In this document: positions 589 to 15,693 of the stretch, one piece after another | Layout of the letters: each line of letters opens with the position of its first letter | Numbering within the stretch: the first letter of the stretch is position 1 | From: Promethearchaeota archaeon | GTDB lineage: Archaea; Asgardarchaeota; Lokiarchaeia; Sigyniarchaeales; SOKP01 | Assembly: GCA_004524535.1 (NCBI GenBank) | Contig: SDNY01000022.1 | Location: forward strand, 1-38,553 | Reading direction: 5' to 3' | DNA length: 38,553 nt | The notes under the pieces: model-generated | The model's input: only the letters and a program-made list of their open reading frames with translations | Database searches by the model: none | Told to the model about the DNA's origin: nothing | Translations under genes and position numbers: made by a program

Positions 589-3500
589 ATGATAAAAAAG
601 CTAAAAACAAAAATAGTAGTAATTTTTGTGTTATTCTTAATTGGAATTGCAGCATCAATCATCTCAACAACTTTCTCTGCTGATGTTGCCGCAGGGTCCA
701 AGAAAGCAGGCTCCTTAAGCACACCATATTCTAATGGAGCGACCTATGGTTGGATGTGGATGTCAGGGAATAAAACCATAAATCAAAATGGTATATATGG
801 CGAGAAGGGAGTTCCTGATATGGCGAATTATCCAGGAGCCAGAACTAGGTCTGTTTCTTGGAGGGATACGGACGGAAATTTTTGGTTATTCGGAGGTTAT
901 GGTTATCCCCAATCAGGTGGAGATGGGCATTTGAATGACCTCTGGAGGTTTACCCTCACCTCAAAGGAGTGGGCGTGGATGTCAGGGAATAAAACCATAA
1001 ATCAAAATGGCGTATATGGCGAGAAGGGAGTTCCTGATATGGCGAATTATCCGGGAGGTAGATGGAGGTTTGTTTCTTGGACGGATACGGAAGGAGATTT
1101 TTGGTTATTCGGAGGAACTGGTTATGCCGAATCAGGTGGTGAGGGTTATTTGAATGACCTCTGGAGATTTAACATCACCTCAAAGGAGTGGGCGTGGATG
1201 TCAGGGAATAAAACCTTAAATCAATATGGCATATATGGCGAGAAGGGAGTTCCTGATATAGCGAATTATCCGGGAGCTAGATACACTTCTGCTTCTTGGA
1301 CGGATACGGAAGGAAATTTATGGTTATTTGAAGGTTTTGGTTATGCCGAATCAGGTGGTACTGGGCGGTTGAATGACCTCTGGAGATTTAACATCACCTC
1401 AAAGGAGTGGGCGTGGATGTCAGGGAATAAAACCTTAAATCAATATGGCATATATGGCGAGAAGGGAGTTCCTGATATAGCGAATTATCCGGGAGCTAGA
1501 TCTTTTTCTATTTCTTGGACGGATACGGACGGAAATTTTTGGTTATTTGGAGGTTATGGTTATACCGAATCAAGTGGTGATAGGTGGCTGAATGACCTCT
1601 GGAGATTTAACATCACCTCAAAGGAGTGGGCGTGGATGTCAGGGAATAAAACCATAGATGAATATGGCGTATATGGCACGAAAGGGAATCCTGATATGGC
1701 GAATTATCCGGGAGCTAGAGGGAATTCTGTTGTTTGGACGGATACGGATGGAAATTTATGGTTATTCGGAGGTTATGGTTATGCCGAATCAGGTGGTCTT
1801 GGGTGGTTGAATGACCTCTGGAGATTTAGCATCACCTCAAAGGAGTGGGCGTGGATGTCAGGGAATAAAACCATAAATCAAAATGGTGTATATGGCGAGA
1901 AGGGAGTTCCTGATATGGTGAACTATCCGGGAGCTAGATCCGCTTCTGTTTCTTGGACGGATACGGACGGAAATTTCTGGTTATTCGGAGGTGATGGTTA
2001 TGCCGAATCAGGTGGTACTGGGCGGCTAAATGACCTCTGGAGATTTAAACTTGGCTGTGCTGAAGAATCGCAACCAGATGGAGCAACCTATGGTTGGACG
2101 TGGATGGTAGGGGATAAAAACATAGATCAATATGGTGTATATGGCGAGAAGGGAGTTCCTGATATGGCAAATTATCCTGGAACTAGAGAGAGATCTGTTT
2201 CTTGGATGGATACGGACGGAAATTTTTGGTTATTCGGAGGTGAGGGTTATGCCGAATCAGGTAGTTATGATCGGCTGAATGACCTCTGGAGATTTAACAT
2301 CACCTCAAAGGAATGGGTGTGGATGTCAGGGAATAAAACCACAGTTGAACATGGTGTATATGGCGAGAAGGGAGTTCCTGATATAGCGAATTATCCGGGA
2401 GCTAGATGGAGTTCTGTTTCTTGGACGGATACGGATGGAAATTTTTGGTTATTCGGAGGTGATGGTTATGCCGAATCAGGTGGTAATGGGCGGCTGAATG
2501 ACCTTTGGAGATTTAACATCACCTCAAAGGAGTGGACGTGGATGTCAGGGAATAAAACCACAGGTGAACATGGTGTATATGGCGAGAAGGGAGTTCCTGA
2601 TATGGCAAATTATCCAGGAGCTAGATCTTTTTTTGTTTCTTGGACGGATACGGACGGAAATTTTTGGTTATTCGGAGCTCTTGGTTATGACGAATCAGGT
2701 GGTTATGGGCATCTGAATGACCTTTGGAGATTTAACATCACCTCAAAGGAGTGGGCGTGGATGTCAGGGAATAAAACCATAAATCAAAATGGTATATATG
2801 GCGAAAAGGGAGTTCCTGATAGGGTGAATTATCCAGGAGGAAGAGAGAGATCTGTTTCTTGGACGGATACGGACGGAAATTTTTGGTTATTCGGAGGAAT
2901 TGGTTATAACGAATCAGGTGATTATGGGCGGCTGAATGATCTTTGGAGATTTAACATCACCTCAAAGGAGTGGGCGTGGATGTCAGGGAATAAAACCATA
3001 AATCAAAATGGTGTATATGGCGAGAAGGGAGTTCCTGATATAGAGAATTATCCGGGAGGTAGAGTCGATTCTGCTTCTTGGACGGATACATATGGAAATT
3101 TATGGTTATTCGGAGGTTATGGTTATGCCGAATTAGGTGGTAATTGGTGGTTGAATGACCTCTGGAGATTTAACATCACCTCAAAGGAGTGGGCGTGGAT
3201 GTCAGGGAATAAAACTACAGGTGAACATGGCGTATATGGCGAGAAGGGAGTCCCTGATATGGCGAATTATCCGGGAGCTAGATCCGCTTCTGCTTTTTGG
3301 ACGGATACGGATGGAAGTTTATGGTTATTCGGAGGTTTTGGTTATGCCGAATCAGGTGGTGTTGGGCGGCTGAATGACCTCTGGAGATTTAAAGATTCTA
3401 TTGCTCCATATATCATGATTATTGAGCCTAGGTATAATAAATTATTTAATGCGACGGCTCCTTCATACAACTTAACCTTTATTGATGCTCATTTAGATGA

Positions 3501-6500
3501 TACATGGTATCGGCTCTGGAATGGTACTGAGTGGTCAATAAATTATACTATTCCGGGTTTAGGCTCAGAAAGAACCGGACAAATCAATCAAGATGCTTGG
3601 AATGACTGTCCGAATGGTACTGTCGTTATCGAATTCTATGCGAATTATACCTTCGGCAATTTGAGGATGAATTCTACAACGGTTAGGAAGGATATTCTGG
3701 GACCTTTAATAACTATTAATGATCCTGCTCCAAATGAATTATTTTTATTTAAAGCTCCAGATGACACGGATTGTGATGTAATTTTTAGTGATGTAAGGGG
3801 TATTGATGCTCGATGGCACATGCTAATAAATGCCACAGACAGCAATCACTATACGAACAATTATACGTGGAATGATGAAGTTAATCAGACTGCTTGGAAT
3901 CAAATGGGCAATGGAACTGTTATCATCCGTATTTTTGCGAATGATTCATCGGGGTACATTGGAATGGCAGAAGTTACTGTAAGAAAAAATATTGTAGACC
4001 CATTTATTTCTATTACTAAACCCGATTCAAATGATATTTTCGGGAATAATACAATGAATTTCACAATTTCAGTGTCGGGAAAAGACCTAGATACCATTTG
4101 GTATATGCTAATAAACGGAACAAACAGTAATGATTATACCAACAATTTAACATATTCTAAGACCGTCGTTGCAGGAGAAATTGAAGATACAATTCAATAC
4201 AATTTATGGAATCAATTTGAAAATGGGACGGTTATTATTCGATTCTTCTTGAACAGAACAAACGGAGTGATGGCGTTTGATGATGTTTTAGTGAGAAAAG
4301 ATATTTTGGGACCTTTAATAACTATTAATGCTCCCACTCCAAATGAATTATTTTCCTCAACCGCACCAGGCTTGGCAGATTGCGATGTAATTTTTAGGGA
4401 TGGGAGTGGTATTGCTGCTCGATGGTATATGCTCATAAATGGAACGGATAATACGGACTATACTAATAATTACACTTGGAATGACGAGGTGGATCAATTC
4501 GTCTGGGATTATATGGATAATGGATTTGTTATCATCCGAATTTTTGCGAATGATTCGTTAGGTTACATTGGAATGGCAGAAGTAACCGTAAGGAAAGATA
4601 TTCATTTACCAAGTAATGGAGCGCCCTATAGTTGGGCGTGGGTGTCAGGGAAAAAAACCACAGATGAACCTGGCGTATATGGCACGAAGGGAGTTCCTGA
4701 TATGGCGAACTATCCGGGAGCTAGATACGGATCTGTTTCTTGGACGGATACGGACGGAAATTTTTGGTTATTCGGAGGTTCTGGTTTGAATGACCTCTGG
4801 AGATTTAACATCACCTCAAAGGAGTGGGCGTGGATGTCAGGGAATAAAACCAAAAATCAATGGGGCGTATATGGCACGAAGGGGGTTCCCGATACGGCGA
4901 ATTATCCGGGAGCTAGAGTATGGTCTGTTTCTTGGACGGATACGGACGGAAATTTTTGGTTATTCGGAGGTTCTGGTTATGACGAATCAGGTGGTTCTGG
5001 GTCTTTGAATGACCTCTGGAGATTTAACATCACCTCAAAGGAGTGGGCATGGATGTCAGGGAATAAAAATATAAATCAAAATGGCGTATATGGCACGAAG
5101 GGAGTTCCTGATATGGTGAATTATCCGGGAGGTAGATGGAGTTCTGTTTCTTGGACGGATACGGACGGAAATTTATGGTTATTCGGAGGTTCTGGTTATC
5201 CCGAATCAGGTGGTGCTGGGCGAATGAATGACCTCTGGAGATTTACCATCACCTCAAAGGAGTGGGCGTGGATGTCAGGGAGTAAAACCTTAGGTGATTA
5301 TGGCGTATATGGCACGAAGGGAGTTCCTGATATGGCGAATTATCCGGGAGTTAGACGGGGATCTGTTTCTTGGACGGATACGGACGGAAATTTATGGTTA
5401 TTCGGAGGGTATGGTCGTGCCGAATCAGGTGGTGGGCAGCTGAATGACCTCTGGAGATTTACCATCACCTCAAAGGAGTGGGCGTGGATGTCAGGGAATA
5501 AAACCGTAAATCAAGGTGGTGTATATGGCACGAAGGGAGTTCCTGATATGGCGAATTATCCGGGAGCTAGACACTCTTCTGTTTCTTGGACGGATACGGA
5601 CGGAAATTTTTGGTTATTCGGAGGTTCTTATAGGAATGACCTCTGGAGATTTACCATCACCTCAAAGGAGTGGGCGTGGATGTCAGGGAATAAAACCGCA
5701 AGTGAATATGGCGTATATGGCACGAAGGGAGTTCCTGATATGGCGAATTATCCGGGAGGTAGATACGGTTCTGTTTCTTGGACGGATACGGACGGAAATT
5801 TATGGTTATTCGGAGGTTGGGGTTATGCCGAATCAGGTTTTGATGGGCAGCTGAATGACCTCTGGAGATTTAAAAATTCTATTGCTCCACATATCACGAT
5901 TATTGAGCCTAGGTATAATAAATTATTTAATGCGACGGCTCCTTCATACAACTTAACCTTTATTGATGCTCATTTAGATGATACATGGTATCGCCTCTGG
6001 AATGGTACTGAGTGGTCAATAAATTATATTATTCCGGGTTTAGGCTCAGAAAGAACCGGACAAATCGATCAAGATGCCTGGAACGACTGTCCAAATGGTA
6101 CTGTCGTTATCGAATTCTATGCGAATGATACCTTCGGCAATTTGAGGATGATTTCTACAACGGTTAGGAAGGATATTCTGGGGCCTTTAATAATTATCAA
6201 TAGTCCTGCTCCAAATGAATTATTTTCATTTAAAGCTCCAGATGACACGGATTGCGATGTAATTTTTAGTGATGTAAGTGGTATTGATGCTAAATGGCAT
6301 ATGCTAATAAATGCAACAAATAGCAATCACTATACGAAAAATTATACGTGGAATGATGAAGTTAATCAGACTGCTTGGGAACAAATGGGGAACGGGACCG
6401 TCATTATTTGGATTTTCGCCAATGATTCTCTTGGTAATATCGGGATGGCAGAAGTGATCGTACGAAAGGATATTGAATTACCAAGTATCGTTATTAATGA

Positions 6501-8220
6501 TCCTACTTTAAATGATATTTTCGGCGTGAATACTTTCAATTTCACAATTACGGTTTCGGGAAAAAATCTCGATACCATTTGGTATATGCTAATAAATGGT
6601 ACAGACAGTAATGATTATACCAATAATTTAACATATTCTAAGACCGTCGCTTCTGGTTCAATTGAAGATATGATTAATTATAACCTCTGGAATCAATTTG
6701 AAAATGGAACGGTTATTATTCGATTCTTCTTGAATAGAACGAACGGATTGATATCATTTGATGATGTTTTAGTGAGAAAAGATATAATAGCTCCTGATAT
6801 CATGATAATTGAGCCAGGATATAATAAATTATTTAATGCGACAGCTCCTTCCTACAATTTAATCTTTATTGAAGCTCATTTAGATGATATATGGTATCGG
6901 CTCTGGAATGGTACTAATTGGTCAATAAATTATACAATCGGGGGTTCAGGTTCTCAGAGATTGGGGCAGATAAACCAAGATGCATGGGATGACTGCCCGA
7001 ATGGTACCGTCATTATTGAATTCTATGCGAATGATACCTTAGGCAATTTGAGGATGAATTCTACAACTATTAGGAAGGATATTCTGGGGCCTTTAATAAC
7101 TATTAATGAACCCACTCCGAATGAATTTTTTTCCTCAACCGCACCAGGCTTGGCAGATTGTAATGTTCTATTTAGTGATGGGAGTGGTATTGATGCTCGT
7201 TGGTATATGCTCATAAATGGAACGGATAACACAGACTATACTAATAATTACACATGGAATGAAGAGGTGGATCAATTTGTCTGGGATTATATGGATAATG
7301 GTACCGTCATCATCCGTATTTTTGCGAATGATTCATTAGGTTACATTGGAATGGCAGAAATTATTGTAAGGAAAGATATTTTAGGACCGATAATAAATAT
7401 CAATGATCCTACTCCGAATGAATTATTTTCCTCAACCGCACCAGGCTTGGCAGATTGTAATGTTCTATTTAGTGATGGGAGTGGTATTGATGCTCGATGG
7501 TATATGCTCATAAATGGCACGGATACCACGGACTATACTAATAATTACACCTGGAATGGCGAGGTGGATCAATTCGTCTGGGACTATATGGATAATGGTA
7601 CCGTCATCATCGTTATTTTTGCGAATGATTCGTTAGGCAACATTGGAAGGGCAGAAATTATTGTAAGGAAAGATATTGAATCGCAACCAGGTGGGCAAAT
7701 TCCCGGTGATGATGATGACGATGATGATGACGATGATGATGACGATGATGATGGAATAATAATAATAATAATAATAATCTGTTTCGGTTCTGTAAGTGGT
7801 ATTGCTGCTACTTCTTTATATTATAAACAACACAGAAATAAAAATTTATATAATAAGCCACACAGAAATAAAAAAGCTAAATCAATTCTTAAAAGAAAAT
7901 TTCAAGAATCTAACAAAATTTTCCCTTCTACTCCATCTTCTAAAGAAATCTTAATGGAACTAACTAATAAAAACTTATTACGCCAAATATTTGATACAAA
8001 AAAGATCAAAAAAATTAATGCTATATTAGATAATATATTAGATAATATCGATTTAACTGCGGTATCTGACGAGTTTCTAAGAAAATTGGATTCTTTAAAG
8101 GTAGACAATGAAGAAAAAAGAGAATTTCTTAAAGAAATGCTGCTTTTTTCTCCCGAAGAAAGAAATGAAATTCTTGATAAGATCTTAAAAAGAGTTAATT
8201 CTTATTCTGAAGGCGAATAA
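589..8220 (+). CDS. Giant secreted membrane-anchored kelch-propeller / Ig-like repeat protein
   Basis: A 2543-residue surface protein. Residues 1-31 form a signal peptide or signal anchor (basic start, then VVIFVLFLIGIAASII). Eighteen kelch-like blades of about 70-75 residues follow, each with W-A-W-M-S-G-N-K-T, V-Y-G, NYPG-A/G-R, SWTDTDGN, LWLFGG and LNDLWRF. They fall into three groups of six at about 53-486, 500-934 and 1343-1760, consistent with three six-bladed propellers. Two blocks of Ig-like modules of about 100 residues (four at 936-1340, six at 1762-2364) end in VRKDI and carry many N-x-S/T sequons. The C-terminus has 15 Asp residues, an Ile-rich membrane helix (about 2389-2410) and a basic cytoplasmic tail of about 130 residues. 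The likely role is cell-surface adhesion, glycan or ligand binding; the ligand is unknown. The next frame (8189-8929) may be its true C-terminus. Confidence 0.9.
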   Translation: MIKKLKTKIVVIFVLFLIGIAASIISTTFSADVAAGSKKAGSLSTPYSNGATYGWMWMSGNKTINQNGIYGEKGVPDMANYPGARTRSVSWRDTDGNFWLFGGYGYPQSGGDGHLNDLWRFTLTSKEWAWMSGNKTINQNGVYGEKGVPDMANYPGGRWRFVSWTDTEGDFWLFGGTGYAESGGEGYLNDLWRFNITSKEWAWMSGNKTLNQYGIYGEKGVPDIANYPGARYTSASWTDTEGNLWLFEGFGYAESGGTGRLNDLWRFNITSKEWAWMSGNKTLNQYGIYGEKGVPDIANYPGARSFSISWTDTDGNFWLFGGYGYTESSGDRWLNDLWRFNITSKEWAWMSGNKTIDEYGVYGTKGNPDMANYPGARGNSVVWTDTDGNLWLFGGYGYAESGGLGWLNDLWRFSITSKEWAWMSGNKTINQNGVYGEKGVPDMVNYPGARSASVSWTDTDGNFWLFGGDGYAESGGTGRLNDLWRFKLGCAEESQPDGATYGWTWMVGDKNIDQYGVYGEKGVPDMANYPGTRERSVSWMDTDGNFWLFGGEGYAESGSYDRLNDLWRFNITSKEWVWMSGNKTTVEHGVYGEKGVPDIANYPGARWSSVSWTDTDGNFWLFGGDGYAESGGNGRLNDLWRFNITSKEWTWMSGNKTTGEHGVYGEKGVPDMANYPGARSFFVSWTDTDGNFWLFGALGYDESGGYGHLNDLWRFNITSKEWAWMSGNKTINQNGIYGEKGVPDRVNYPGGRERSVSWTDTDGNFWLFGGIGYNESGDYGRLNDLWRFNITSKEWAWMSGNKTINQNGVYGEKGVPDIENYPGGRVDSASWTDTYGNLWLFGGYGYAELGGNWWLNDLWRFNITSKEWAWMSGNKTTGEHGVYGEKGVPDMANYPGARSASAFWTDTDGSLWLFGGFGYAESGGVGRLNDLWRFKDSIAPYIMIIEPRYNKLFNATAPSYNLTFIDAHLDDTWYRLWNGTEWSINYTIPGLGSERTGQINQDAWNDCPNGTVVIEFYANYTFGNLRMNSTTVRKDILGPLITINDPAPNELFLFKAPDDTDCDVIFSDVRGIDARWHMLINATDSNHYTNNYTWNDEVNQTAWNQMGNGTVIIRIFANDSSGYIGMAEVTVRKNIVDPFISITKPDSNDIFGNNTMNFTISVSGKDLDTIWYMLINGTNSNDYTNNLTYSKTVVAGEIEDTIQYNLWNQFENGTVIIRFFLNRTNGVMAFDDVLVRKDILGPLITINAPTPNELFSSTAPGLADCDVIFRDGSGIAARWYMLINGTDNTDYTNNYTWNDEVDQFVWDYMDNGFVIIRIFANDSLGYIGMAEVTVRKDIHLPSNGAPYSWAWVSGKKTTDEPGVYGTKGVPDMANYPGARYGSVSWTDTDGNFWLFGGSGLNDLWRFNITSKEWAWMSGNKTKNQWGVYGTKGVPDTANYPGARVWSVSWTDTDGNFWLFGGSGYDESGGSGSLNDLWRFNITSKEWAWMSGNKNINQNGVYGTKGVPDMVNYPGGRWSSVSWTDTDGNLWLFGGSGYPESGGAGRMNDLWRFTITSKEWAWMSGSKTLGDYGVYGTKGVPDMANYPGVRRGSVSWTDTDGNLWLFGGYGRAESGGGQLNDLWRFTITSKEWAWMSGNKTVNQGGVYGTKGVPDMANYPGARHSSVSWTDTDGNFWLFGGSYRNDLWRFTITSKEWAWMSGNKTASEYGVYGTKGVPDMANYPGGRYGSVSWTDTDGNLWLFGGWGYAESGFDGQLNDLWRFKNSIAPHITIIEPRYNKLFNATAPSYNLTFIDAHLDDTWYRLWNGTEWSINYIIPGLGSERTGQIDQDAWNDCPNGTVVIEFYANDTFGNLRMISTTVRKDILGPLIIINSPAPNELFSFKAPDDTDCDVIFSDVSGIDAKWHMLINATNSNHYTKNYTWNDEVNQTAWEQMGNGTVIIWIFANDSLGNIGMAEVIVRKDIELPSIVINDPTLNDIFGVNTFNFTITVSGKNLDTIWYMLINGTDSNDYTNNLTYSKTVASGSIEDMINYNLWNQFENGTVIIRFFLNRTNGLISFDDVLVRKDIIAPDIMIIEPGYNKLFNATAPSYNLIFIEAHLDDIWYRLWNGTNWSINYTIGGSGSQRLGQINQDAWDDCPNGTVIIEFYANDTLGNLRMNSTTIRKDILGPLITINEPTPNEFFSSTAPGLADCNVLFSDGSGIDARWYMLINGTDNTDYTNNYTWNEEVDQFVWDYMDNGTVIIRIFANDSLGYIGMAEIIVRKDILGPIININDPTPNELFSSTAPGLADCNVLFSDGSGIDARWYMLINGTDTTDYTNNYTWNGEVDQFVWDYMDNGTVIIVIFANDSLGNIGRAEIIVRKDIESQPGGQIPGDDDDDDDDDDDDDDDGIIIIIIIICFGSVSGIAATSLYYKQHRNKNLYNKPHRNKKAKSILKRKFQESNKIFPSTPSSKEILMELTNKNLLRQIFDTKKIKKINAILDNILDNIDLTAVSDEFLRKLDSLKVDNEEKREFLKEMLLFSPEERNEILDKILKRVNSYSEGE
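745..2046 (+). repeat. Kelch-type propeller 1 (six repeats)
   Basis: Six tandem repeats of roughly 210-225 bp encode blades 1-6. Conservation is high at the DNA level too: the stretch encoding S-K-E-W-A-W-M-S-G-N-K-T is nearly identical from unit to unit, and the starts of units 3 and 4 are almost the same. A short linker (KLGCAEESQPDG, nt 2047-2084) with a Cys separates this set from the next. Confidence 0.85.
2086..3390 (+). repeat. Kelch-type propeller 2 (six repeats)
   Basis: Six further tandem units (blades 7-12), opening with a divergent first blade (WTWMVGDKN) and ending in LWRFK just before the first Ig-like block. The same core words recur as in propeller 1. Confidence 0.85.
3391..4610 (+). 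repeat. Ig-like module block 1 (four modules)
   Basis: Four modules of about 100 residues share the plan I-x-I-x-x-P-x-x-N-x-x-F ... WY-x-LING ... NYTW ... NGTVII-R-I/F-FAN ... VRKDI. Two module types are visible (those with W-Y-R-L-W-N-G and those with W-Y/H-M-L-I-N), and they recur in block 2. An Ig or fibronectin-like beta sandwich is inferred from pattern only. Confidence 0.7.
4617..5871 (+). repeat. Kelch-type propeller 3 (six repeats)
   Basis: Six units mostly of the VYG-T-K-G-V-P-D subtype, whereas propellers 1 and 2 mainly use VYG-E-K-G-V-P-D. Two units (blades 1 and 5 of the set) lack the GYxESGG loop and are about ten residues shorter. The E/K versus T/K split suggests that units are homogenised within a propeller. 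Confidence 0.85.
5877..7680 (+). repeat. Ig-like module block 2 (six modules)
   Basis: Six modules of about 100 residues. The first two are close copies of the first two modules of block 1 at both protein and DNA level, and the last two modules of this block are near-identical to each other. This points to segmental duplication of a propeller-plus-Ig cassette. Confidence 0.7.
7708..7779 (+). repeat. Asp-tract and Ile-tract trinucleotide repeats
   Basis: Codons GAT/GAC give 15 Asp residues in a regular GAT-GAT-GAT-GAC pattern, then GGA, then seven ATA and one ATC codon giving eight Ile. The acidic run directly abuts the membrane helix. A second gene at 21446-22012 has the same arrangement. 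Such tracts can change length by slippage. Confidence 0.9.
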
Positions 8221-8929
8221 AATTCCAAATAAAATTTTATATGAAACGTTAAATAACATTTCAGAAGAACAGATATTAGTATTAAATATTATTCAGGAAT
8301 ATCTTAACAAAAATAGAACTTTTAATAAAATCGAAATAGTTCCTTTTATTAATGCTAAAATAGCAAAAAAAAAATTAAATATTAGTTATATTAGAATAAT
8401 TGAAATTCTCAAATCACTTGTAGAAAAAAATATCATTGTTGAAGGATCTAAATTAATAAAATTTGATCTCTTAGCAAATTTAAATAGAAAAGATATTTAT
8501 GATTATATTATAAAAAATCCCGGGATTCATTTCAATAAGCTCGTTAAAGTTCTAAATATTAGTGTATTTAGTGTTGAATGGCATTTGAATATATTATTAA
8601 AATTTAATCTCATCAGGAAAGTAAAAATAGAAAACTTTGATGCATATTTCGATTCAAAATTACCTTCCAAAAACGATGAAATTCTTCATATCATTTCAAG
8701 AGAGAAATGTAACGAAATAATCCAATATATTAAGCAAAACAACGAAGGCTATTCAAAAAATTACCTTTCAAAAGAACTTAAAATCCATTCTAATACAGTC
8801 TCAAAATATATTGAAAAACTTGAGGAATTGGGTCTTTTATTGAAAAAAGAATTATCTAATATGACATTGTATTTCTTAAATGAAGGTTATTTCGCACATT
8901 TGATTAGTGAAATTAAATCTATACCTTAA
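8189..8929 (+). CDS. Triple winged-helix ORF, probable frameshifted C-terminus of the giant protein
   Basis: The frame is open from 8189 to the stop at 8927-8929 and contains no ATG, GTG or TTG before a TTG at 8585, which lies inside a domain. Translation from 8219 (KIPNKILYETLNNISEEQ...) gives about 236 residues with three winged-helix-like modules. The second carries the pattern NPGIHFNKL...SVEWHLNILLKFNLIRK, typical of archaeal membrane-associated HTH regulators. The third carries SKNYLSKELKIHSNTVSKYIEKLEELGLL. The giant gene stops at 8218-8220 in the frame just before; skipping one base at GAA-T-AAA would fuse the two. Alternatives are a separate gene with a non-standard start, or a sequencing indel. 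The DNA-binding fold is a confident reading; the fusion is inferred. Confidence 0.65.
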   Translation, partial: KELILILKANKIPNKILYETLNNISEEQILVLNIIQEYLNKNRTFNKIEIVPFINAKIAKKKLNISYIRIIEILKSLVEKNIIVEGSKLIKFDLLANLNRKDIYDYIIKNPGIHFNKLVKVLNISVFSVEWHLNILLKFNLIRKVKIENFDAYFDSKLPSKNDEILHIISREKCNEIIQYIKQNNEGYSKNYLSKELKIHSNTVSKYIEKLEELGLLLKKELSNMTLYFLNEGYFAHLISEIKSIP

Positions 8930-11279: not shown

Positions 11280-12902
11280 ATGAAAAAAAATATCATATCT
11301 GATTTTTTAAATAAAATTAAAACATTTAGGGACAGAAAGCAATTTTTAGAAGAAATTGAGAAAGAAGAAAGTAGTTCAATAGATAATATTTTAGTCAAAT
11401 TCGTACTAGACAAAAATAGGGCTTTAGCGAAGGAAAAATTCACTCAAACTGCAGAACTTATCGCCAAAACTCAAGATGAAATTGAGAAGGAAGTCAAAAG
11501 TAAAACGTTGTTCGGGCTCTTCGATAAAGTGAGAGAAGTTTCTGAAGATCAATTTCAATATAATTTTAAAGAAAAAAGACAAATTAAAAAAGCAGGTAAA
11601 CAATTCGATACTTTTGTGGATAGATTAGATTCTGCTATGCCGGCAACTGAAGAAGAGAGACTATCAGATATGAAGGAGCTTAAAGCAGCTATTACGTTGC
11701 TTGAATCATATGATGAGGAATCTTATAGAGTTAGTCCTAAAAAAACTGACGCAGGAGTAGGAATGTTTTATGATCGAATGTCTCGTCAATTTAAATCATT
11801 AATTAGTGAACATAAATTAGATCATTATAGATTAATCCCTATTCAACGATTAAAATATCATGTGCTCTCAAATAATAAAAGGCTAAAAGATGAGGATATT
11901 CTTCCAATCGTAAACATCATGAAGGAAACTAACTTGGTGGGAGATGTTATTGAAGTTAATCCAACTCTTCATGTTATTGTATTAGGAGATGAACAATTTG
12001 ATTTTTCGCTCGCTGAAAAAGTTCTTTTAACTTTTGCCTACGATGAGGACCTAACGTTTCGAAAATTATTGGAATTAACGGAATGGAAAGAAGAACATGC
12101 TAATAATGTAATTAAAAGTTTAACCGATCAAGGATTAGATACTCGTTTTGATGATAGAATTGCTGTTAGAGGATTTGGAAAAATAGAGGATAGAAAGGTG
12201 TGGAATGATACTATTGAAAAAATAATTCAAGAGGCTAAAGATAAAGAATTAGACAAGAAAAAACGACAAATAGAAAGAAAGGAAAAATTAAAACAAAAAC
12301 TTTCTCAGGTCGAAAAAATGGAAATCCCTTCAGCAGAAGTGAAAGATATGACCAGTGAAAAGCAGAAACTCCAAGAAGAACAAGAAATTATGGATAAAGA
12401 TGCCTTATTGGGTGCGATGGAGGCTCTAGATGATATAGTGCCAGTAAAAGCAGATAAGGGTTTAATAAGTGATCCCCAAATTTTAGAAAATCAGATCTCT
12501 GAAAATGTTTTAGAATATCATGAAAAATTCTCTCTAATTAACGGCGGTATAGCGCAATATGAAAAAATTAAAGAATATCTGACCCAGGAATTAGGAGACT
12601 TTTCTGATGAGGTTTTAAAAACAGTACTTAATCAATTAATAGAATTCAAAATGATTGTTGAAACAATAAAAATTGGAGAATATGACTTTTATCTGTTTAA
12701 TGAGATTGATTTAACTGAAAGTCAGATAGAGTTTCTTAATTTTGCCATTGGTAAAGAAACAATGAAGAAAGAAGACTTTATTAATGGATTAGAATGGAAC
12801 GAAGAAAAAACATTATTAACAATGAAACAACTTCAACAAAAAGGGATTCTGGTATTAGCACAACAAAATATACTCATACCTGGAGTTATTCAAAAGGATT
12901 AA
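11280..12902 (+). CDS. Multi-winged-helix coiled-coil protein, possibly EAP30-like (ESCRT-II)
   Basis: A 540-residue soluble protein. Residues 1-150 are charged and helical. The middle (about 180-305) has a pattern reminiscent of EAP30/Vps22-Vps36: LIPIQRLKYHV...L-K-D-E-D-I-L, then VIVL, then a winged-helix-like LTFRKLLELTEW...IKSLTDQGL-x-x-RFDDRIAVRGFG. A basic coiled coil follows (about 320-370). The C-terminus (about 425-540) has two more winged-helix-like units, including MKKEDFINGLEW...MKQLQQKGILVL. If the reading is right it would combine EAP30-like and extra winged-helix parts in one chain. Other possibilities are a UFL1-like scaffold or a generic winged-helix adaptor. No other ESCRT gene is in the window, so the assignment rests on pattern alone. 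Confidence 0.4.
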   Translation: MKKNIISDFLNKIKTFRDRKQFLEEIEKEESSSIDNILVKFVLDKNRALAKEKFTQTAELIAKTQDEIEKEVKSKTLFGLFDKVREVSEDQFQYNFKEKRQIKKAGKQFDTFVDRLDSAMPATEEERLSDMKELKAAITLLESYDEESYRVSPKKTDAGVGMFYDRMSRQFKSLISEHKLDHYRLIPIQRLKYHVLSNNKRLKDEDILPIVNIMKETNLVGDVIEVNPTLHVIVLGDEQFDFSLAEKVLLTFAYDEDLTFRKLLELTEWKEEHANNVIKSLTDQGLDTRFDDRIAVRGFGKIEDRKVWNDTIEKIIQEAKDKELDKKKRQIERKEKLKQKLSQVEKMEIPSAEVKDMTSEKQKLQEEQEIMDKDALLGAMEALDDIVPVKADKGLISDPQILENQISENVLEYHEKFSLINGGIAQYEKIKEYLTQELGDFSDEVLKTVLNQLIEFKMIVETIKIGEYDFYLFNEIDLTESQIEFLNFAIGKETMKKEDFINGLEWNEEKTLLTMKQLQQKGILVLAQQNILIPGVIQKD

Positions 12903-14814: not shown

Positions 14815-15693
14815 TTACAATGAATTAATAGCGTTTCTTAATATTGCTAAAATTTTTTCACGATAATTTGGATTGATAGCAATCATTCCATGAACTTTTA
14901 TGGGGGGAATTTTATCAGATAAATTTGCAAGAATTTTTTCACAAAATTCAGGAGTAAGCCTATTAGGTAAATCTTGTTTGTTTGCTATTCCTATAATTAA
15001 ATAACCTTTGTAATATTTTTCCAACACTTCTTTAATAATTTCTTTAGAAGAATTCAAATTTTCATAAGTAGAATCTAATACTAAAAGTGCGATTTGTGTA
15101 TTGTCTAATAAGCTCCCCCATAAAGTCCGGAACTGTGCTTGTCCCGCGAAATCCCAAAAAGTCACTGGCAAAAAACTGAGCTCTTTATCCTCATAATTCG
15201 TTATATTTGCAGTAATCGTTGGAACATACTCAAGATTAATATCTTTTCCGCATATAAGATGAAGTAAACTAGTTTTTCCTACTCCACCGAATCCAATTAT
15301 ACTAACTTTTATTGCGCCTAAAACGATAGTATCTAATTCCTTTTCAAAATCGTAAAAAATAGCGCGGTTTCCATCCCATTTACCTTCCTCAAAGAGAGTG
15401 CCATAATTTTTAATAAATTGAGCTCTAATTTTATTAATCTTTGAATAAACCTGAGCATCGTCATCTTCTAAATCCGCACATACAACTATTATAAAGGAAT
15501 TAACTACTGTATAATGATATTTAAAATCTTCTGTAGAGGTACTTTTAATGTCAGAACGACTAATTTCTTTCATGAATCCTGAAAAAGCACTTAAAAACCC
15601 TGCCAATAAATCTCTATCAATTTCGGAATCTCCATAATTCCTAAATAGCAATGATTTGCCATCCTTGGTCATGATATTAATATATTGGATCAT
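14815..15693 (-). CDS. Longin/roadblock-like domain fused to an Arf-like small GTPase
   Basis: A 292-residue protein. Residues 1-125 (MIQYINIMTKDGKSLLFR..., a helix, then FIIVVCADLED) fit a longin or roadblock-type alpha-beta fold. Residues 127-292 form a GTPase with P-loop GFGGVGKTS (134-142), a switch I Thr in VPTITAN, DFAGQ (181-185) and NKQD (238-241). WDFAGQ-x-QFR-x-LW resembles Arf/SR-beta types. In eukaryotes longin and GTPase partners are mostly separate chains; here they are joined. No Cys prenylation motif or N-terminal Gly is present. The gene is divergent from 15807, with an AT-rich 113-bp shared promoter region. Confidence 0.85.
   Translation of the reverse strand: MIQYINIMTKDGKSLLFRNYGDSEIDRDLLAGFLSAFSGFMKEISRSDIKSTSTEDFKYHYTVVNSFIIVVCADLEDDDAQVYSKINKIRAQFIKNYGTLFEEGKWDGNRAIFYDFEKELDTIVLGAIKVSIIGFGGVGKTSLLHLICGKDINLEYVPTITANITNYEDKELSFLPVTFWDFAGQAQFRTLWGSLLDNTQIALLVLDSTYENLNSSKEIIKEVLEKYYKGYLIIGIANKQDLPNRLTPEFCEKILANLSDKIPPIKVHGMIAINPNYREKILAILRNAINSL

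Follow-up and report, generated by a model that had tools for sequence, protein, structure and literature searches.

A giant surface sensor and an overlapping triple helix-turn-helix gene in Lokiarchaeota: a putative two-protein transmembrane regulator with interchangeable outer domains

The stretch of DNA analysed here (the window, 38,553 nucleotides at its full length) carries a gene for a giant kelch-repeat surface protein, whose end is overlapped by an open frame coding for helix-turn-helix (HTH) modules. Comparison with relatives gives good support to the view that the two frames are neighbouring genes with a slight overlap, rather than the parts of a single frameshifted protein. In our reading, the pair forms a transmembrane regulator made of two proteins, the outer domains of which can be exchanged, and the system is widespread in Lokiarchaeota. 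The whole explanation, in which a sensor docks a soluble triple-HTH protein on its cytoplasmic tail and gene regulation follows, seems probable to us. The features referred to below, all on the + strand, are as follows.

589..8220, +: sensor gene, 2543 aa (ORF list; Pfam Kelch_4, 1.7e-67; translation)
7753..7815, +: transmembrane (TM) segment GIIIIIIIICFGSVSGIAATS, located by reading the sequence; its hydropathy peaks at 2.7
7894..8205, +: conserved cytoplasmic tail domain (..TAVSDEFLRKLD..EKREFLKEMLLFSPEERNEIL..), profile match E 4.9e-29, alignment
8207..8929, +: separate triple HTH/winged-helix gene, 240 aa, putative CTG start (alignment with the ATG of G014; dN/dS; structure)
8207..8209, +: putative start codon CTG; ATG in G014, CTG in G013 (junction alignment)
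8207..8220, +: 14-nt overlap of the two genes, ending with the sensor TAA (8218-8220; sequence)
8215..8221, +: proposed slip site GAA-T-AAA; the sensor stop of orthologue G014 lies upstream (junction alignment)
8264..8476, +: predicted HTH module 1, residues 20-90, hardly any wing (AlphaFold2 model)
8480..8653, +: predicted winged-helix module 2, residues 92-149, Pfam HTH_HVO_0163_N (Pfam; AlphaFold2 model)
8666..8878, +: predicted winged-helix module 3, residues 154-224, Pfam HTH_24/HTH_11, recognition-helix motif HSNTVSKYIEKL (Pfam; AlphaFold2 model)

The sensor gene and the second frame

As judged from its translation, the sensor has a hydrophobic N-terminal segment, kelch and Ig-like repeats outside (the latter read from sequence only), one TM segment directly preceded by a poly-Asp stretch at about 7703-7752, and a cytoplasmic tail of about 135 aa. 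The tail domain proper (about 100 aa) is conserved across relatives, matches no Pfam family above cut-off, and is predicted with moderate confidence to form a small helical domain.

The second frame, at +1 relative to the sensor, is open from 8189 to 8929 (246 codons) and shares 32 nt with the sensor end. Its earliest ATG, GTG or TTG lies at 8585, i.e. 396 nt into the frame. A preliminary description of this DNA had these sequence facts right, having noted an overlapping +1 frame that codes for winged helices and lacks a start for more than 390 bp. The chance of finding no canonical start over 126 codons is about 0.04 at the given composition, which is mildly unusual only. This frame is a real coding sequence and not a chance open frame, because its product has HTH matches in Pfam (HTH_24, 2.1e-9; HTH_HVO_0163_N, 2e-9) and orthologues at 96%, 86% and 53% identity, close ones being present within the genus, and because dN/dS is low along the full length: about 0.3 against G013 and 0.37 against G014, with similar values in the first 378 nt, which hold no canonical start. 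The whole 8207-8926 frame is under purifying selection.

The AlphaFold2 model of the HTH protein (mean pLDDT 89.7) contains three HTH modules, and its wing strands are clear in modules 2 and 3 but hardly present in module 1; the three winged-helix modules described previously thus stand as three predicted HTH modules, of which two are clearly winged. Tandem winged helices could also serve as a protein-protein adaptor resembling EAP30 of ESCRT-II, rather than as a transcription factor. Foldseek lists ESCRT-II and UFL1/DDRGK1 chains, there is a weak EAP30 match (E 0.003), and the putative recognition helices bear no net positive charge. However, the EAP30 match reaches 17.8 bits and so falls below the cut-off of 26.8, and what Foldseek returns for the model are partial winged-helix matches only, superposed with poor rmsd, whereas HTH_24, HTH_11, HTH_36 and HTH_HVO_0163_N all exceed their curated Pfam cut-offs. 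The best profile matches are HTH families and archaeal DNA-binding proteins, and DNA-binding proteins are also the best PDB sequence matches. We consider an adaptor role unlikely.

Two side observations concern the neighbourhood. A 540-aa protein with no Pfam match is encoded at 11280-12902, and since a 540-aa ORF likewise lies downstream of the HTH gene on the G013 contig, the neighbourhood seems conserved between the two. Further on, 14815-15693 encodes a small GTPase of Arf/Ras type whose N-terminus is extended by about 125 aa.

The gene junction and the putative CTG start

In the 86% identical orthologue G014, the sensor ends AAT TCT TAA and, 2 bases on, the HTH gene starts ATG AAG GCG AAT AAA ATT. 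Aligned to it, the window reads AAT TCT TAT T-CTG AAG GCG AAT AAA ATT, and the same CTG junction is present in the 96% identical G013, which is a different MAG. As one A is missing in comparison to G014, the sensor stop is lost and the sensor runs 14 nt into the HTH gene; as CTG stands where G014 has ATG, the start of the HTH gene is hidden in the window.

We infer that the HTH gene of the window starts at CTG 8207, although CTG is rare as a start codon and no Shine-Dalgarno sequence can be clearly made out here at the spacing normally seen. The pairs that have no usable ATG, GTG or TTG upstream of the domain, namely window/G013, L043 (G012) and L072 (G009), all carry CTG at the family start position, even though just 0.5% of the codons in these genes are CTG. 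L043 and L072 are more distant relatives. In L043 the CTG (699-701) has AGAGGT upstream, while in L072 it is the first codon after an in-frame stop and opens the HTH frame. Ribo-seq in Methanosarcina mazei found CTG starts in about 5% of unannotated small ORFs (PMC11456600). With L043 and L072 as further cases, such starts may be under-annotated in Lokiarchaeota, and gene callers restricted to ATG, GTG and TTG would probably truncate or miss the CTG-started partners found here. An ATT at 'NNISEEQ', considered as the HTH start from comparison with the paralogue, was supported neither by the ungapped alignment nor by the G014 junction.

The ATG to CTG difference relative to G014 might be taken as the mark of a gene that is decaying after loss of its start codon. 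This is very improbable, for the frame is open in two MAGs, both with CTG and with a dN/dS of about 0.3 between them, and CTG occupies the start position in two other lineages. It would be at least as surprising if a sequencing or assembly indel had broken a single gene. The sequence does come from a MAG, and near the junction it differs from G014 by one base; nevertheless, the different MAG G013 has the same junction, separate genes are the rule in this family, and the G014 ATG would still be in the HTH frame even without its extra A.

The preliminary description had joined the two frames by a +1 shift at GAA-T-AAA into a single receptor of about 2780 residues. In favor of a programmed +1 frameshift one may list the overlapping frames, the 396 nt without a canonical start, and the occurrence of in-frame fusions in one relative. 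On the other hand, the relation is not kept even in G014, whose sensor stop lies 5' of the slip site and whose HTH gene opens with ATG. Among 35 sensor/HTH pairs, the frame relation is 0, +1 and +2 in 3, 17 and 15 cases, respectively, with a stop between the genes in the frame-0 pairs, and therefore one kind of slip cannot serve all. Moreover, the gene order is reversed in a sister clade. The variable frame relation, together with the G014 sensor stop before the slip site, excludes a conserved +1 slip, and we find a programmed shift giving one chain in the window hardly credible. A winged-helix gene standing alone with its own start, which had been named beforehand as the observation that would speak against the join, was found: an ATG lies close to the start of the domain in 26 of the 35 pairs, and 6 more have GTG or TTG only. 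Programmed frameshifting in archaea has been documented mainly as -1, for the Sulfolobus solfataricus alpha-fucosidase (PMC8211752). That gene resembles the window in having two overlapping ORFs in different frames. Its ORFs, however, encode the two halves of a single enzyme and are linked by a slippery site, whereas here neither the frame nor the slip site is conserved, the junction varies, and in relatives the second ORF is provided with a start of its own.

Pairing of tail domain and HTH protein across Lokiarchaeota

The source genome contains exactly two tail domains and two full-length HTH family proteins, each pair adjacent. In the paralogous pair (C123, L004:4629-8892), a sensor of 1191 codons bears a NosD-type beta-helix instead of kelch repeats, and it has the same poly-Asp stretch, TM segment and tail, followed by an HTH gene with an ATG. 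The tail domain is present in 63 of the 228 genomes of the phylum sample. For the 99 tail matches listed in the family, the HTH gene is directly downstream or fused in 42 and directly upstream in 35; at least five more tail matches have it upstream of a long sensor. The remaining category, with no listed HTH gene within 400 bp, counts 22 of the 99, some of them in the long-sensor order, and no HTH gene was found beside the tail in the stretches read of L141-L146. Pairing also occurs in other families (L147, L152, L153).

Four arrangements can be told apart: sensor followed by HTH gene; HTH gene followed either by a long sensor or by a tail protein that is short and has two TM segments; compact HTH protein with two TM segments and no tail; and true fusions. 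The outer domains vary (kelch, NosD beta-helix, SBBP propeller, Ig-like, cadherin, Big_7) while the tail stays constant.

The true fusions are known from one genome only (G007), in which sensor, tail and HTH part lie in one frame and form four uninterrupted chains of 1000-1553 aa (L055-L058). These four make up one clade (support 100/99) inside paired and compact sequences, so fusion looks like the derived state, on a tree rooted at its midpoint only. Three of them (L055, L056, L058) combine a TM segment with a putative DNA-binding domain in one polypeptide; in L057, hydropathy gave no second TM peak above threshold. In the model of a fused chain (pTM 0.61), a long helix joins the tail to the HTH part, and no contact between the two can be claimed from it.

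Several variants were seen in passing. Compact HTH proteins of 333-390 aa (L047, L048, L054, L066, L070, L073, L083, L085, L086, L089, L090, L095-L098) have N-terminal TM segments without ectodomain or tail. In L064, L065, L067, L068 and L071, an extra Cys/His-rich, zinc finger-like segment (e.g. CQVHRGPIEGIIFSCPKCKTKYCLKCA..CWFCG) lies between TM and tail domain. In the sensor at L045:764-1327, the tail domain occurs twice in tandem ahead of the HTH gene. Finally, at L148:1862-2608, in another family of the order, tail and HTH pieces lie in overlapping frames with gaps, as if a fused or paired gene had been damaged.

The proposed receptor and known systems

The one-receptor idea of the preliminary description survives in part: adjacency in two gene orders and four one-chain relatives back a sensor/HTH system, not a single 2780-residue chain in the window. 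We propose that both genes belong to one probable transcription unit. The product of the first would be a surface sensor that crosses the membrane by one helix and carries the conserved cytoplasmic tail domain, and that of the second, read from CTG 8207 with a 14-nt overlap, a soluble protein of three HTH modules; the overlap may keep both products in step by translational coupling. The tail domain would bind this protein or hold it at the membrane; in response to a signal at the ectodomain, the protein would be changed or set free, and would go on to regulate genes through DNA binding. Since the pairing is independent of gene order and ectodomain, fusion occurs in a relative and compact forms are membrane-anchored, we infer that the tail is a docking or control site for the HTH protein.

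Adjacent regulators of their own operon are common, and the HTH regulator might thus merely share an operon with the sensor gene, regulating it or other genes with no contact to the tail domain. The fused-chain model, from which no interface can be read, would agree with that. Yet the HTH gene tracks the tail domain and not the ectodomain, the outer domains changing while the tail stays, and both natural fusions and compact membrane-anchored versions exist, so that a shared operon without contact appears to us an unlikely explanation.

In a bolder form of the docking model, Lokiarchaea would have a large class of receptors that work without phosphorylation: a new tail domain, borne by interchangeable surface sensors, would dock a triple-winged-helix transcription factor at the membrane, and the class would occur in split, reversed-order, compact and fused forms, some members being CTG-initiated. 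We put this forward tentatively, at slightly less than an even chance. Little is known on how Asgard archaea pass outside signals to genes. A constant inner tail, a constant partner of DNA-binding type and swappable outer domains would together make a testable receptor family, and the natural fusions make the predicted tail/HTH contact directly testable. Our literature search, with many subscription papers outside its reach, found no description of the tail/HTH pairing, and no phage homologues were found; the arrangement appears to be a route from external signals to genes that has not been described before.

With regard to known systems, Pfam detects no histidine kinase or receiver domain of a two-component system in the sensor, tail or HTH protein. 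Module 2 matches the HVO_0163-type HTH family (PF24266; 37.8 bits against a gathering score of 31), but this family covers one of the three modules and its domain definition includes no membrane partner. ArnR of Sulfolobus is a single chain whose HTH lies at the N-terminus and whose two TM segments lie at the C-terminus, with putative HAMP and sensor domains in addition (PMC6396743). ArnR and ArnR1 are likewise archaeal membrane-bound HTH regulators, and their two-TM anchoring recalls the compact versions in relatives; ArnR differs from the pair in the window in domain order and gene structure, being one chain with no large ectodomain. A close parallel in layout is offered by the transmembrane transcription regulators (TTRs) such as ToxR and CadC of bacteria (census in PMC10269533), which share an external sensing part, a membrane helix and a cytoplasmic HTH output with no phosphorelay domains seen. 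The TTR definition of a TM segment and a DNA-binding domain in one polypeptide applies to most of the fused G007 proteins. It does not apply to the window, whose genes are separate: unlike in TTRs, the HTH part here and in the 35 sampled pairs is a separate soluble protein, the sensor carries a conserved tail domain, and the HTH part consists of three modules and lies at the C-terminus of the fusions.
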